64,000 nucleotides of DNA from Streptomyces ruber (GTDB lineage: Bacteria; Actinomycetota; Actinomycetes; Streptomycetales; Streptomycetaceae), in contig NZ_BMQK01000001.1 in NCBI RefSeq assembly GCF_014648075.1, forward strand, positions 62,001 through 126,000, in the 5' to 3' direction. Positions 16,455-39,378 of this stretch are shown here, one piece after another (the stretch's first letter is position 1; the number at the start of each line of letters is the position of its first letter). The notes under the pieces were generated by a model. That model had not been told where the DNA came from. It made no database searches and saw only the letters and a program-made list of their open reading frames with translations. The position numbers and the translations under genes were made by a program.

Positions 16455-16533
16455 GGTGATGGGCCCCCTTCTACCGGCAGGAACGTGCCGGACGATCCGT
16501 TGTGGAAGGTGGTGCCACTACGGGGAGTTCCGT

Positions 16534-33167: not shown

Positions 33168-33200
33168 GGTCCCGCGGCGGTGCGGGAGCGGCACGGGGAC

Positions 33201-33261
33201 CGGGGGCCGTCCCACGGATACGGGGGGCCGTCCCACGGATACGGGGAGCCGTCCCTGGATA
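33201..33261. repeat. Three tandem 20-21-bp repeats in the otsB leader
   Basis: Three copies of CGGGGGCCGTCCCACGGATA (20, 21 and 20 bp, slightly diverged) run up to 11 bases before the otsB start, placing them in or next to its promoter. Confidence 0.85.
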
Positions 33262-33272
33262 GACGTCACCGT

Positions 33273-34145
33273 ATGGGCATCAACACGGACTCCACGGACT
33301 CCACAGGCCACCAGGACTCGCTGCCGGCGCCCGCGACGCCGGGCGGGCGCGACGGGCTGGACGCGCTGCTCGCCCGGCCGCGCAGGGCGGTCCTCGCGTT
33401 CGACTTCGACGGGACCCTCGCCCCGATCGTCGCCGACCCCGAGCGGGCGCGGGCACACCCCGACGCCGTCCCCGCACTGGCGGCCCTCGCCCCGAAGGTC
33501 GCCTCCGTCGCCGTGATCACGGGCCGCCCCGCCGAGGTCGCGGTCCGCAACGGCGGCTTCGCGGGCGCCGGCGGCCTGGAGCACCTGGTCGTCCTCGGCC
33601 ACTACGGCGCCGAGCGCTGGGAGGCCGCCACCGGCGAGGTCACCGCCCCCGCCCCGCACCCGGGCGTCGCCGCGGTCCGGGCCGAGCTGCCGGGCGTCCT
33701 CGACCGGGCCGGCGCCGGGGAGGGCACGTGGATCGAGGAGAAGGGCCGGGCGGTCGCCGTCCACACCCGTCGCGCCGCCGACCCCCAGGCCGCCTTCGAG
33801 GCCCTGCGGGAGCCCCTCGCCTCGCTCGCCGCCCGGCACGGCCTCGTCGTCGAGCCCGGCCGGCTGGTCCTGGAACTGCGCCCGCCGGGCGTGGACAAGG
33901 GCGTCGCCCTGCGGGAGTACGTACGCGACACCGGTGCCGAGGCGGTGCTGTACGCCGGCGACGACCTCGGCGACCTGCCCGCCTTCGCCGCGGTCGAGGA
34001 GCTGCGCGGCGAGGGTGTCCCCGGCCTGCTGGTGTGCAGCGGCAGCGACGAGGTCCACGAACTGAAGAAGCGCGCCGACCTGGTGGTGGACGGCCCGGCG
34101 GGCGTCGTACGCCTGCTGCGGGCGCTGGCCGGCGCGATGGGGTGA
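33273..34145 (+). CDS. otsB: Trehalose-6-phosphate phosphatase
   Basis: This 290-residue HAD phosphatase converts trehalose-6-P to trehalose. HAD motif I is [10 protein letters not shown], motif II is VAVITGR, the substrate cap spans about residues 110-225, the Lys of [11 protein letters not shown] is motif III and [12 protein letters not shown] is motif IV. It is convergent with otsA, which makes its substrate. The N-terminus is Ser/Thr/Asp-rich. Confidence 0.94.
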
Positions 34146-34158
34146 GGTGCCGGAAGGG

Positions 34159-34195
34159 GGGAGTCCGGGCCCGGCACCGCCGGGCCCGGACTCCC
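34159..34195. terminator. Bidirectional terminator between otsB and otsA
   Basis: A stem of about 16 bp (34159-34174 with 34180-34195) with the loop CACCG sits between the two convergent stop codons. Confidence 0.85.
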
Positions 34196-34200
34196 TACCC

Positions 34201-35637
34201 TCAGCTCTCCAGCGCGTGCAGCTGGTCCAGGAACCACTTCGCCGGGGGCAGCGCGGTCGCCGCGGCGGCCAGCCGCTTGCCGCGTTCGGCGCGCTCGTCC
34301 TCCGGCAGGGTCAGCGCGGTGTGCAGCGCGTCGGCCGTGCCGACGATGTCGTACGGGTTCACCGCGACCGCGTCCTCTCCCAGCTCCTCGAACGCGCCCG
34401 CCTCCCGCGACAGCACCAGCGCGCAGCCCGCGTCGGAGACGACCGGCACCTCCTTGGCGACCAGGTTCATGCCGTCCCGGATGGGGTTGACCAGCGCCAC
34501 GTCCGCCAGCCGGTACGCGGCCAGCGAGCGCGCGAAGTCGTCCTGGACGTGCAGCACGACCGGGGTCCAGCCCGGTGTCCCGTACTGCGAGTTGATCTCG
34601 TCGGCCAGGCGCTGCACCTCGGCCGTGTAGTCGCGGTAGACGGCGAGGTCCTGCCGGGACGGGTACGCGAACGCCACGTGCACCACCCGCTCGCGCCACT
34701 CCGGCCTGTCCTCCAGCAGGTGCCGGTACGCCAGCAGTCCGCGCACGATGTTCTTCGACAGCTCGGTCCGGTCGACCCGGACGATCGTCTTCCGGGTGCT
34801 GCCGTCCGGGGCGGTGCCGATCTGCTCCCGCAGCGCGGCCATCCGCTCGTCCACGTCCGCCTCGTGCGACCGCTTCCGCAGGAAGTCCGCGTCGGCGCCC
34901 AGACCGTGCACGCCGATCCGGGTGCCCGAGGGGATGCCGGGCCCCAGCACGGCGTGGCAGCACTCCGTGAACGCGTCCGCCCACCGCTGGGTGAGGAACG
35001 CCGCCCGGTCCGCGCCCAGGATGCCGCTCAGCACCTGCGCCGCGATGTCGTCGGGCAGCAGCCGGAAGTACTCCGGCGGCGCCCACGGCGTGTGCGAGAA
35101 GTGGCCGATGCGCAGGTCGGGGCGGAGCTCCCGGAGCATACGGGGCACCAGCACCAGGTGGTAGTCCTGCACGAGCACCGCCGCGCCCTCGCCCGCCTCC
35201 TCGGCCAGCGCCTCGGCGAACGCGCGGTTGTACGCCTCGAACGACGCCCACTGCCGCCGGAACTCCGCGTCGAAGGCCGGCTCCAGCGGCGTCTGGTACA
35301 GCATGTGGTGGACGAACCACAGCACCGAGTTGGCGATGCCGTTGTACGCGTCCGCGTGCACGTCGGCGGCGATGTCCAGCATGCGGACACGCTGACCGCC
35401 GGTGTCCTCCGTGGGCAGGGCGCCGTCGGCGCGCCGCGCGGCTTCGCGGTCGCCGTCGCCCAGCGCCGCGCAGACCCATACGGCGTCGGCGTCGGGGCCG
35501 ATCGCGGAGAGACCGGACACCAGCCCGCCACCACCGCGTTTGGAGGTGAGCTCACCGCTGTCGGCCAGCGAGTACGAGACGGGGCCGCGGTTGGACGCGA
35601 CCAGGACACGAGCGCCGGTGGGGGATGGGGAAGCCAT
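34201..35637 (-). CDS. otsA: Trehalose-6-phosphate synthase
   Basis: This 478-residue GT20 glycosyltransferase joins UDP-glucose (or GDP-glucose) and glucose-6-[15 protein letters not shown] at the N-terminus, [69 protein letters not shown] and the C-terminal DGMNLVAKE are diagnostic. It pairs with convergent otsB to make trehalose for osmotic and spore protection. ATG 35637 begins [19 protein letters not shown]. Confidence 0.95.
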
Positions 35638-35767
35638 ACGCCTCAACTAGCCCGAGGTCGGAAAACTCAAACGTCTGTCCCATCCGTATACGAGCCGGAA
35701 AGGGACACGGGCGGGACGGCGGTGCGCGGGCGGAGCGGCGGTGCGCGGCGGGCCGCGCCGGCTGCGC

Positions 35768-36724
35768 CTACGCCGCTCTCCTCGCCGCGTACTCCTCGAT
35801 CTCCACCATCGGCGGCCGCTCCTCCGTGTCCACCGAGTACGTACGCGGCTCGAACCCCTCCTCGCCCCGCTCGAACTGGGTGAGGGCCGGGCGGACCAGG
35901 TGGCCGCGGGCGAGGCGCAGCTGGGCCGTGCGGTAGATCGCGGCGGCCATGCGGCCGAGCGCCTGTCCGTCCTGGTGCCGGTGCTTGCGGACGCCGACGT
36001 CGACCTGGGCGAGGGCGTCGAGGCCCACCAGGTGCAGGGCGTCGACCAGCATGCCCAGCTCGACGCCGTACCCGACCGGGAACGGCAGCCGCTCCAGCAG
36101 GGAGCGCCGGGCCGCGTACTCGCCGCCGAGCGGCTGGACGAAGCCCGCGAGCTGCGGCCAGTGCATGTTGAGCAGCGGCCGGGCCATCAGCTCGGTGACC
36201 CGGCCGCCCTGCCCGGCCGGGACACCCGCGGAGGCGGCGAGCGGCCGGTCGTACATCGCCTTGACCAGGTCGACCCCGGGATCGGTGAGCAGCGGGCCCA
36301 CGATGCCGGTGACGAAGTCGGACGAGAACTCCCGCAGGTCCGCGTCGACGAAACAGACGATGTCCCCGTGGGTGACGAGCAGCGAGCGCCACAGCACCTC
36401 GCCCTTGCCGGGCACGGCCGGCAGGCGCGGGAGGATCTCGTCGCGGTGGACGACTCTGGCGCCCGCGGCGGCGGCCACCTCGGAGGTGCGGTCGGTCGAC
36501 CCCGAGTCGACGACCACGACCTCGTCGACGAGCGGTGTCTGTTCCACCAGGTCGTGACGGATCGCGGCGACGATCTCGCCGACCGTCCGCTCCTCGTCGA
36601 GCGCGGGCAGGACGACGCTGACCGACTGTCCCGTGGCGCGTTTCGCGGCCATGAGCCGGTGCAGTGGACGATCGGTCACGGACCAGGAGCGTGTGCTCAG
36701 CCAGTGTTCGACTTCTTCCAGCAC
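35768..36724 (-). CDS. gpgS: Glucosyl-3-phosphoglycerate synthase
   Basis: This 318-residue GT-A glycosyltransferase of family GT81 makes glucosyl-3-phosphoglycerate, precursor of glucosylglycerate and methylglucose polymers. SVVLPALDEERTVGEI and VVDSGSTDRT bind UDP-glucose, VDADLREF is the metal DxD, and GGEYAARR plus YGVELGMLVDAL complete the family pattern. Its place beside otsA suggests a shared compatible-solute role. A dolichol-phosphate glycosyltransferase is the alternative, but there are no membrane helices. Confidence 0.88.
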   Translation of the reverse strand: MLEEVEHWLSTRSWSVTDRPLHRLMAAKRATGQSVSVVLPALDEERTVGEIVAAIRHDLVEQTPLVDEVVVVDSGSTDRTSEVAAAAGARVVHRDEILPRLPAVPGKGEVLWRSLLVTHGDIVCFVDADLREFSSDFVTGIVGPLLTDPGVDLVKAMYDRPLAASAGVPAGQGGRVTELMARPLLNMHWPQLAGFVQPLGGEYAARRSLLERLPFPVGYGVELGMLVDALHLVGLDALAQVDVGVRKHRHQDGQALGRMAAAIYRTAQLRLARGHLVRPALTQFERGEEGFEPRTYSVDTEERPPMVEIEEYAARRAA

Positions 36725-36883
36725 AGCCTGCGGCTCCTCCCTCTTCGATCACACAGGGGGCACATGTGATCCATCTCGCGGTTCGGACGTCTATCTCAAC
36801 TGTCCTGGCCGTCGGTTACAGTCTTGAACAACGCGGATGACCATCGCATGTCGGGGGTCACCGCTGTTCACAACCGAATACCG

Positions 36884-37052
36884 CTCATCCAGAGGGGCAG
36901 AGGGACACGGCCCGATGAAGCCCCGGCAACCCTCCAGCCGGCTCTCGTAGCGATCAACCGGTCACTGGCGACCGCGATCGACTCCGCGGGGCTCCCGGCT
37001 AGGGAAGGTGCCAAATCCGTCTCACGGCGAAGTGCGTCGTGAGGAAGATGAG
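36884..37052 (+). ncRNA. SAM-I (S-box) riboswitch
   Basis: The P1 stem pairs CTCATC (36884-36889) with GATGAG (37047-37052). Inside lie the conserved S-box blocks AGAGGGGCAGAGGGAC, CCCGATGAAGCCCCGGCAAC and GGTGCCAAATCC. The 3' P1 strand overlaps AGGAGAAAGG, the ribosome site of the next gene, so SAM binding probably hides it and blocks translation. Peripheral sequence differs from SAM-IV. Confidence 0.92.
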
Positions 37053-37071
37053 GAGAAAGGGCCTCGCCTCC

Positions 37072-38403
37072 ATGGCTGCGCAGACAGTTGCCACCCCCGC
37101 CGACCCGGGCACCACGGACTCCGCCACCGCCGAGTCCGCCACCGCGAACCCCGGCTCCGTCGACCTCGGTCCCGCCGCAGCGCTCTCCTGTCGCGAGTGC
37201 GGCCACCGCGTCCCGCTCGGCCCGGTCTTCGCCTGCGAGGAGTGCTTCGGGCCGCTTGAGATCGCCTACGACTTCTCCGCGTACGACACCGAGGAACTGC
37301 GCCGGCGCATCGAGTCCGGCCCCGCCAACATCTGGCGCTACGCGCCCCTGCTGCCCGTCCCCGCCGACGTCGCCGACAAGCCGAACCTCAATCCGGGCTG
37401 GACCAAGCTGGTGCAGGCCGACAACCTGGCCCGCGAGCTCGGTGTGACCGGTGGGCTGTATGTGAAGGACGACTCCGGCAACCCGACGCACTCGTTCAAG
37501 GACCGGGTCGTCGCGCAGGCGCTGGAGGCGGCGCGCGCCTTCGGTTTCACCACCCTCTCGTGCTCCTCCACCGGCAACCTCGCCGGTGCGGTCGGCGCGG
37601 CCGCCGCCCGCGCCGGGTTCCGCTCCTGCGTGTTCATCCCGCACGACCTGGAGCAGGGCAAGGTCGTCATGGCCGCCGTCTACGGCGGTGACCTCGTCGG
37701 CATCGAGGGCAACTACGACGACGTCAACCGCTTCTGCTCGGAGCTCATCGGCGACCCGGCGGGCGAGGGCTGGGGCTTCGTCAACGTCAATCTTCGGCCG
37801 TACTACGCCGAGGGCTCCAAGACCCTCGCGTACGAGATCTGCGAGCAACTCGGCTGGCGGCTCCCCGACCAGATCGTGGTCCCGATCGCCTCCGGCTCCC
37901 AGCTCACGAAGATCGACAAGGGTCTGCAGGAACTGATCGAGCTCGGTCTGGTCGAGGACCGGCCGTACAAGATCTTCGGCGCCCAGGCCCGCGGCTGCTC
38001 CCCGGTGTCCACGGCCTTCAAGGACGGCCACGACGTCGTCCGCCCGCAGAAGCCGGACACCATCGCCAAGTCCCTCGCCATCGGCAACCCCGCCGACGGC
38101 CCGTACGTCCTGGACATCGCGCGCCGCACGGGCGGCGCCGTGGAGGACGTCGACGACGCGGAGATCGTGGACGCGATCCGGCTGCTGGCGCGCACCGAGG
38201 GCATCTTCGCCGAGACGGCGGGCGGTGTGACCGTCGGCGTCACCCGCAAGCTGATCGAGAGCGGCCTGCTCGACCCGGCGAAGACGACCGTCGTCCTCAA
38301 CACCGGCGACGGCCTCAAGACGCTGGACGCGGTGGCCGGCACGGGCCTGACCGCGACCATCCGCCCCAGCCTCGACTCCTTCCACGAGGCCGGCCTCGCG
38401 TAG
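37072..38403 (+). CDS. thrC: Threonine synthase-like PLP enzyme, likely homocysteine-forming
   Basis: This 443-residue fold-type II PLP enzyme has an N-terminal zinc ribbon (SCRECGH and CEECFG), the Schiff-base Lys in PTHSFKDRVV, phosphate-binding SSTGNLAGAVGAAA and IASGSQLTKI. Annotation by similarity is threonine synthase, acting on O-phosphohomoserine. However, it is controlled by a SAM-I riboswitch and followed by a ThiS/MoaD carrier. This fits homocysteine synthesis from O-phosphohomoserine with sulfur from the carrier, a route I recall being reported recently for Streptomyces but cannot verify here. The start is ATG 37072, after the AGGAGAAAGG site. Confidence 0.9.
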   Translation: MAAQTVATPADPGTTDSATAESATANPGSVDLGPAAALSCRECGHRVPLGPVFACEECFGPLEIAYDFSAYDTEELRRRIESGPANIWRYAPLLPVPADVADKPNLNPGWTKLVQADNLARELGVTGGLYVKDDSGNPTHSFKDRVVAQALEAARAFGFTTLSCSSTGNLAGAVGAAAARAGFRSCVFIPHDLEQGKVVMAAVYGGDLVGIEGNYDDVNRFCSELIGDPAGEGWGFVNVNLRPYYAEGSKTLAYEICEQLGWRLPDQIVVPIASGSQLTKIDKGLQELIELGLVEDRPYKIFGAQARGCSPVSTAFKDGHDVVRPQKPDTIAKSLAIGNPADGPYVLDIARRTGGAVEDVDDAEIVDAIRLLARTEGIFAETAGGVTVGVTRKLIESGLLDPAKTTVVLNTGDGLKTLDAVAGTGLTATIRPSLDSFHEAGLA

Positions 38404-38456
38404 CCGTTCCGCACGGCCGTCCCCCCTCGTACAGCCAGCCCCAGGAGGTACCACCC

Positions 38457-38732
38457 ATGAGCGTCACCGTCCGCATCCCGACGATCCTGCGCACCTACAC
38501 CGGCGGCCAGGCGGAGGTCGGCGCCGAGGGCGCGACGCTCGCCGAGGTCCTCGCCGACCTGGAGAAGAACCACCCGGGCATCGGCGCCCGCGTCCTGGAC
38601 GACCAGGGCAAACTGCGCCGGTTCGTGAACGTGTACGTCAACGACGACGACGTCCGTTTCGAGAAGGGTCTGGAGACGGCGACCCCCGACGGCGCGGGCG
38701 TCTCGATCATCCCGGCCGTCGCGGGTGGCTGA
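38457..38732 (+). CDS. ThiS/MoaD-family sulfur-carrier protein
   Basis: This 91-residue ubiquitin-fold protein ends in the functional diglycine (SIIPAVAGG), which is adenylated and thiocarboxylated to carry sulfur. Family marks are RIPTILRTYTGGQ, FVNVYVNDDDVRF and the late hydrophobic strand. A perfect AGGAGGT lies seven bases before the ATG. It is 53 bases after the ThrC-like gene in the same riboswitch operon, so it is probably the sulfur donor for that enzyme rather than a molybdopterin or thiamine subunit. Confidence 0.92.
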   Translation: MSVTVRIPTILRTYTGGQAEVGAEGATLAEVLADLEKNHPGIGARVLDDQGKLRRFVNVYVNDDDVRFEKGLETATPDGAGVSIIPAVAGG

Positions 38733-38772
38733 TTAGCACCTCCGGTGGCTTCCCTTACCGCCAGTCTCTTTG

Positions 38773-38807
38773 ATTGCCCCCTCCGTGAGAGAAACGGAGG
38801 GGGCAAT
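38773..38807 (+). terminator. Terminator of the riboswitch operon
   Basis: A perfect 14-bp stem (38773-38786 with 38794-38807) with the loop GAGAGAA starts 40 bases after the sulfur-carrier stop. Confidence 0.85.
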
Positions 38808-39174
38808 TCAACATGGTTGAGCGCGGTACAGTTGGGGAACCCGGTTCGTTTCTCACATGAGATGCGGAGTCGGCGCATATGAGTTCCCCGGTTCGGGTCC
38901 GACGCGATGTAGCCAAAGTGTGCAGGGCTTTTGCGTCTTTTGTTCCCTTTGTCAGGTCCGACTTGCCCTGAAATCAGGGTAATTCTCCCTACATTACCGA
39001 CCGCCGGTGTCCAGAATTCTCGTCCGATTGACCTGTTGCAGACGGCAGTTGGGCAGATACATTCAGCCGCGGTCGACGCGTTCCGGCGCACACCCCCAAC
39101 CGTTGGGGGGTGAGGTCTGACCCGGATCCGCGAAGTGTGGATCTGCGCAAGGGCCAGTAATAGGGGAGTTAGGC
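38808..39174. other. Promoter and long leader region of the cold-shock gene
   Basis: This 367-base, relatively AT-rich stretch precedes the cold-shock gene. It contains a TTGACC -35-like hexamer (39028-39033), a hairpin of CACCCCCAAC with GTTGGGGGGTG (39091-39112), and a GGGGAG ribosome site close to the ATG. No coding bias is seen. A structured 5' leader, as in many cold-shock mRNAs, is likely. Confidence 0.5.
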
Positions 39175-39378
39175 ATGGCTCAGGGCACCGTCAAGTGGTT
39201 CAACGCGGAGAAGGGGTACGGCTTCATCGCGGTCGACGGTGGTGCGGATGTTTTCGTCCACTACAGCGCGATCCAGATGGACGGCTACCGCACTCTGGAA
39301 GAGGGGCAGCGGGTCGAGTTCGAGATCTCGCAGGGCCAGAAGGGGCCGCAGGCGGACATGGTCCGCGTGGCCGTCTGA
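39175..39378 (+). CDS. csp: Cold-shock protein (CspA family)
   Basis: This 67-residue single cold-shock domain has RNP1 KGYGFIAV and RNP2 VFVHYSAI preceded by GTVKWFNAE. It is an RNA chaperone that melts mRNA structure. Tyr replaces Phe in RNP1, as in other Streptomyces copies. It lies between the riboswitch operon and groEL2, with its own strong terminator. Confidence 0.95.

Follow-up and report, generated by a model that had tools for sequence, protein, structure and literature searches.

A SAM-I riboswitch, a threonine-synthase-like enzyme and a ThiS-family carrier as a likely MetM-MetO homocysteine unit in Streptomyces ruber

Why should a gene that resembles threonine synthase be placed behind a SAM-I riboswitch and be followed by the gene of a sulfur carrier? 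The question is raised by a locus in a stretch of 64,000 nucleotides of Streptomyces ruber DNA, which is referred to here as the window. In the initial annotation, a SAM-I riboswitch was placed ahead of a ThrC-like PLP enzyme, a diglycine-ended ThiS-type carrier was assigned to the same operon with no thiamine or molybdopterin genes nearby, and the whole was read as a methionine module. A Streptomyces report of such a route was mentioned there without a citation, the lack of a second, canonical thrC in the genome was named as a refuting test, and a search for metX, metY and metB was proposed. The features of the locus are collected in Table 1. Elsewhere in the window, an msiK RNA motif (RF01747, 60.1 bits) was found at 16459-16517 on the minus strand, close to a tRNA-Thr gene. 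The region 33180-36724, upstream of the riboswitch, was found to contain genes for a trehalose-phosphatase and a family 20 glycosyltransferase (OtsB and OtsA type) and for a family 2 glycosyltransferase.

Table 1. Coordinates of the features at the metM-metO locus (positions of the window).
Feature	Position	Strand	Basis or remark
SAM-I riboswitch aptamer	36882..37054	+	Rfam RF00162, 74.9 bits, model covered in full (1-108)
Candidate ribosome-binding site of metM, AGAAAGG	37054..37060	+	abuts 3' strand of P1
metM-like gene, 443-aa PLP enzyme resembling threonine synthase	37072..38403	+	PF00291, TIGR00260; start by leader comparison
metO-like gene, 91-aa sulfur carrier of the ThiS family with GG at the C-terminus	38457..38732	+	PF02597, 62.8 bits
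17-pair hairpin after metO	38770..38811	+	fold of 38740-38830: -41.2 kcal/mol, z -3.88

The RF00162 match was found to exceed the gathering score of 44.4, with an E value of 1e-15 when the whole window was searched, which confirms the riboswitch of the initial annotation. The P3 arm of the aptamer was found to be long, with 64 bases in place of the 6 of the model, and the P1 pairing was formed by 36884-36889 (CUCAUC) and 37047-37052 (GAUGAG). The whole genome contained a single SAM-I match, at metM (150 of 453 first-look candidates scored).

The linkage of metM to the riboswitch was found to be conserved in the genus. A metM orthologue was present in all 101 sampled genomes, the genome under study included, at 78-100% identity, followed in the matches listed by a next class at 33-39% identity to the window enzyme; the metM of one genome (G001) was a fragment at a contig end. 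SAM-I was found in 99 of the 101 genomes (up to 33 first-look candidates scored per genome), and in these 99 it was located directly upstream of metM on the same strand, the distance from the riboswitch to the beginning of the protein match being -7 to 135 nt (median 17). The two genomes without SAM-I contained a metM that started at contig positions 15 and 1, respectively, and both loci are cut by contig ends. Under strict filters, a single SAM-I match was found in 98 of the 99 genomes. The remaining genome (G098) contained a second one away from metM (L178:7389-7530, minus strand, 68.5 bits), and the next downstream open reading frame was judged by eye to encode an IclR-type regulator.

The leader was found to define both the translation start and the probable mode of control. 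The listed open reading frame of the enzyme starts at 37039, within the aptamer. An ATG at the position of 37072 was conserved in all of 80 named loci, which were the best of 581 matching and comprised 79 loci of Streptomyces and one of 'Actinobacteria bacterium OV320'. The phase of this ATG relative to the conserved upstream GATGAGG was found to divide the loci into two groups, of 34 and 46, which indicates that 37039-37071 is not coding in all of them. From this comparison of leaders, the translation start of metM is most likely the ATG at 37072, and the protein most likely contains 443 residues. The GTG at 37039 and the ATG at 37048 were rejected as starts, the reading frame there not being conserved in the 80 named loci. 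The AGAAAGG element, a likely ribosome-binding site by its match to the 3' end of 16S rRNA, was exact in 74 of the 80 named leaders and was present in a shorter purine-rich form in the remaining 6. No terminator-like site was found on the plus strand in 36700-39200, for which reason a transcription-terminating expression platform was rejected and translational control is considered the likelier mode of the metM riboswitch. In the fold, the mean unpaired probability of the candidate ribosome site was approximately 0.65 with P1 enforced versus approximately 0.81 with the 5' strand of P1 blocked. This drop in access was confined mostly to the last two bases of AGAAAGG, and it was in the expected direction, modest, and too small to settle the mode.

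The carrier was found to terminate in VAGG. Both metM and metO were located on the plus strand with 53 nt between them, and AGGAGGT was present ahead of the carrier ATG; a diglycine-ended ThiS-type carrier in what is likely the same operon is thus supported, and the hairpin behind metO is likely the end of the transcription unit. No other match to the ThiS or ThiF family was found in the window, so the statement that thiamine and molybdopterin genes are lacking nearby holds for these two families. The best solved relatives of MetO were 3dwg_C (entry name: 9.5 kDa culture filtrate antigen cfp10A) and 4n6e_B, of which 3dwg_C is presumably M. tuberculosis CysO. The metO gene was adjacent to metM in all of the 80 named loci, where the carrier tails were GG in 73, GGC in 6 and GGA in 1. 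Among the best 22 loci outside the genus (L144-L165), 20 contained an adjacent metO, whose product ended in GG in 12 and had one or two extra residues in 8.

The variation of the tail deserves a separate record. MetO with a GGC tail was found at L046, L050, L110, L115, L117, L118, L127, L128 and L142, and with a GGA tail at L092 and L144. Encoded residues past GG were also present at L150, L152, L153, L156, L157, L159 and L164, with longer extensions at L184 and L191. The GGC tail resembles a carrier-cysteine adduct. Adducts of carrier and cysteine are cleaved by Mec.

Four ThiS-family genes were found in the genome, the metO of the window included. One of them, a CysO-like gene with a GGMA tail, was flanked by the genes of a JAB peptidase and a cysteine synthase (L029:749-2734), another was close to ThiG (PF05690, 365.7 bits), and the fourth was judged by eye to be MoaD-like, with an AGG-type end. 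The CysO-like gene was seen to overlap the start of the cysteine synthase gene, and its GGMA end would need trimming, unlike that of the window MetO. Two ThiF-family E1 proteins passed the cut-off. The first was MoeZ, which has a rhodanese domain at its C-terminus (759.7 bits against a cut-off of 647). The second (L034:1351-2808, minus strand) contained 485 residues with the domain near the end (80.1 bits) and without rhodanese, and had no NCBIfam match at E 1e-15. Both are candidates for the E1 of MetO, and of the two MoeZ would be favoured.

The presence of several carriers bears on the question of whether MetM needs its own. MetM might use free sulfide, with MetO being dispensable or serving cysteine synthesis together with CysM; MetO was found to be 61.5% identical to the CysO-like protein of the genome, by which cross-talk is possible, and a recognisable metO neighbour is lacking at a few metM-like genes elsewhere. 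Such genes were observed at L181, L183 and L192 (genomes G298, G209 and G136). We nevertheless regard the use of free sulfide as unlikely, since a separate CysO-like gene is present at the cysteine synthase and since the adjacency of metO to metM was conserved throughout the named loci and in nearly all of the best loci outside the genus. The reading in which MetO is the sulfur donor of MetM is therefore preferred.

The ThrC-like PLP enzyme that was announced behind the riboswitch was recovered by both family models, PF00291 and NCBIfam TIGR00260 thrC (271.5 bits, over the cut-off of 167.1). When the window enzyme was aligned with solved threonine synthases (2zsj, 6cgq, 2d1f and 1uim), the catalytic lysine motif (FK) and STGN were found to be retained. 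The positions T88, S155 and R160 (numbering of T. thermophilus ThrC), which we take to be the residues binding the substrate phosphate, were occupied by L, N and Y (L170, N240 and Y245 of the 443-residue protein), respectively, and N157 was occupied by R (R242). L, N and Y, together with R at N157, were conserved in 30 of 30 aligned MetM sequences (the window enzyme, 7 sequences from the 80 named loci and 22 from the phylum), whereas T, S, R and N were conserved in 15 of 15 ThrC sequences of the genus. The MetM sequences thus lack the phosphate-site T, S and R of a canonical ThrC, yet the curated thrC cut-off was passed by the window enzyme. The motifs STGNLA and NxRxxYxEGSK were present in 103 of 103 MetM and in 0 of 15 ThrC, and the same counts were obtained for an N-terminal CxxC...CxxC, which contained a G after the first pair in 98 of the 103 MetM. 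The pair STGNLA and NxRxxYxEGSK could help annotators to tell MetM from ThrC, a use that is directly testable.

The search of the genome with PF00291 gave 13 matches. The paralogue nearest to the window enzyme (35.6% identity) contained 352 residues and was located 6 nt behind homoserine dehydrogenase (L024), followed by homoserine kinase (thrB) 937 nt further downstream on the same strand, which completes a canonical hom-thrC...thrB set. The refuting test of the initial annotation therefore went in favour of the methionine module, a second, canonical thrC being present. A third ThrC-like PLP protein (L025:5796-6914, minus strand) was observed to fall under every threonine synthase cut-off shown. 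On these grounds it is very unlikely that the window enzyme is just another threonine synthase and that the carrier of its operon functions in a different process. The thrC score, the retained FK and STGN motifs and a Microcystis homologue that makes threonine in vitro (PMC12172450) would agree with that role, but a canonical thrC already stands beside hom, metM is under the only SAM-I match of the genome, as it is directly behind SAM-I in 99 of 101 genus genomes, and the three ThrC phosphate-site positions are replaced consistently.

The supply of homocysteine by other enzymes was searched through MetX and the PF01053 proteins. MetX was not credibly matched in the genome, the best match reaching 25.5 bits and spanning 49 of the 351 positions. 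PF01053 gave 11 matches, of which two were full length and a third was partial and barely passed the Pfam cut-off (27.8 bits). The full-length pair passed only PRK07811 cystathionine gamma-synthase (679 bits, cut-off 513) and PRK07582 gamma-lyase, and no MetY/MetZ-type enzyme was over the cut-off among the 25 best of 43 families for each of the two. That this PRK07811-type gene, as a plant-like cystathionine gamma-synthase acting on O-phosphohomoserine and cysteine, supplies the homocysteine and leaves metM-metO accessory is suggested by its score and by the absence of MetX, but is scarcely probable, as the gene has no SAM-I, the sole match of the genome being at metM, and as MetM of S. albulus is described as preventing methionine auxotrophy (PMC12172450).

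In the genus, MetX was matched at E 1e-30 or lower in 31 of the 101 genomes (with a score of at least 300 bits in 30 of these; up to 18 first-look candidates scored per genome), so that MetM is not always the sole possible route. The usual first methionine enzyme was thus not found at this threshold in 70 of the 101 genomes. The metM of the window, for its part, is scored as threonine synthase by a curated set of models.

Across the Actinomycetota, metM was found in 95 of 246 genomes (96 at E 1e-60, minus G133 at 34% identity). The gene of G133 (L187:1315-2421, minus strand) has no adjacent carrier and was seen to be neither clearly MetM nor clearly ThrC. SAM-I was located just upstream of at least 50 of 88 metM genes outside the genus sample, a figure drawn from 68 SAM-I rows of metM genomes, with one non-adjacent row of G209 left out. 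MetX was found in 85 of the 246 genomes; up to 8 first-look candidates per genome were scored for MetX and up to 14 for SAM-I. Both metM and metX were present in 22 genomes, metM only in 73, metX only in 63 and neither in 88, which gives a weak anticorrelation (odds ratio 0.42, p 0.0037) in which kinship is ignored. SAM-I was found 147-243 nt before metX in 21 genomes, which belong to one family and lack metM (600-nt limit; 43 of 85 metX rows and 47 SAM-I rows taken in). Two metM genomes, G302 and G209 (L208 and L209), were found to contain another SAM-I approximately 1.5 kb ahead of metX, and the intervening gene was MetY-type (TIGR01326, 630.7 and 651.5 bits, respectively; cut-off 495.1). 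That SAM-I serves strictly either metM or metX, never both, was ruled out by these two genomes. The presence of SAM-I before metM and before metY-metX in them indicates that both routes can share control in one genome.

The methionine-module reading is supported by this genome context, namely by the separate hom-thrC, the missing MetX and the riboswitch linkage. The riboswitch, metM and metO very probably form one operon, a MetM-MetO unit in which O-phosphohomoserine and the carrier thiocarboxylate would give homocysteine. In the proposed order of steps, MetO would be adenylated by MoeZ, followed by the loading of sulfur through the rhodanese domain of MoeZ. MetM, with K143 as its PLP lysine, would eliminate phosphate from O-phosphohomoserine and would accept sulfur at C-gamma instead of water at C-beta, followed by the release of homocysteine and its methylation to methionine. 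At high SAM, P1 would fold with its 3' strand against the candidate ribosome-binding site, and the translation of metM would be reduced.

A broader scenario is put forward only tentatively. MetM may have arisen from threonine synthase through an exchange of the phosphate clamp (T88L, S155N, R160Y and a new Arg at N157), which would block the phosphate-assisted attack of water and open C-gamma to the thiocarboxylate; SAM-I of the Actinomycetota may mark homocysteine-forming steps (metM, metX, or both metM and a metY-metX unit); and the GGC, GGA and GGR carriers may have to be trimmed by a Mec-type peptidase in order to function.

Streptomyces are major antibiotic producers and heavy users of SAM. 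The correct naming of metM would fix metabolic models and would mark the branch point between threonine and methionine.

Hasebe and co-workers reportedly found in 2024 that MetM converts O-phosphohomoserine to homocysteine with thiocarboxylated MetO. The Streptomyces report mentioned in the initial annotation was traced to this work. The homocysteine synthase MetM of Streptomyces, its cyanobacterial homologues and the metO carrier gene are described (Hasebe et al. 2024, Appl Environ Microbiol 90:e01247-24, cited in the mSystems paper PMC12172450). The MetM-MetO route itself was thus already known, having been published in 2024. New in the present analysis are the linkage of metM to the riboswitch in 99 of 101 genomes of the genus, usually with a single SAM-I, the extent in the Actinomycetota, the signature that tells MetM from ThrC within the compared sets, the carrier tails and the corrected start. 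A Microcystis protein that is 51.6% identical to MetM was described as having threonine synthase and threonine deaminase activity; methionine did not rise in vivo, and an assay of the MetM type gave no more than an unidentified peak (PMC12172450). These results call for caution against naming every homologue MetM. The tandem riboswitches at thrC of the Bacillota are described as T-box and not SAM (PMC12452182).

Among known systems, canonical ThrC was found to share with the window enzyme the PLP family, the catalytic lysine, STGN and presumably the substrate O-phosphohomoserine, whereas the window enzyme is 35.6-38% identical to the thrC product of its own genome and differs by the N-terminal CxxC, the L/N/Y residues with the new R, and the control by SAM-I. 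The CysM-CysO-Mec system likewise contains a PLP enzyme beside a ThiS-family carrier, and its presumed carrier structure is the best solved relative of MetO. In contrast, the window enzyme is ThrC-like, and MetO ends in GG instead of the GGMA of the CysO-like protein near the JAB peptidase; a carrier beside a CysM-type enzyme and a JAB peptidase was found at L029 and not at metM. In Wolinella succinogenes, the work of Krishnamoorthy and Begley from 2011 is said to have assigned the sulfur of homocysteine to a carrier thiocarboxylate, with MetY acting on O-acetylhomoserine. The HcyS/MetY system of that species thus has in common with MetM-MetO the carrier thiocarboxylate as a source of homocysteine sulfur, which for MetM-MetO is proposed, but here MetX is lacking and MetY is not over the cut-off among the families shown. 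No difference was apparent from MetM-MetO of S. albulus as described in PMC12172450. In that description, a SAM riboswitch is located upstream of metM, and the window locus resembles it in the ThrC-like enzyme, the neighbouring carrier gene and the upstream SAM riboswitch (PMC12172450).
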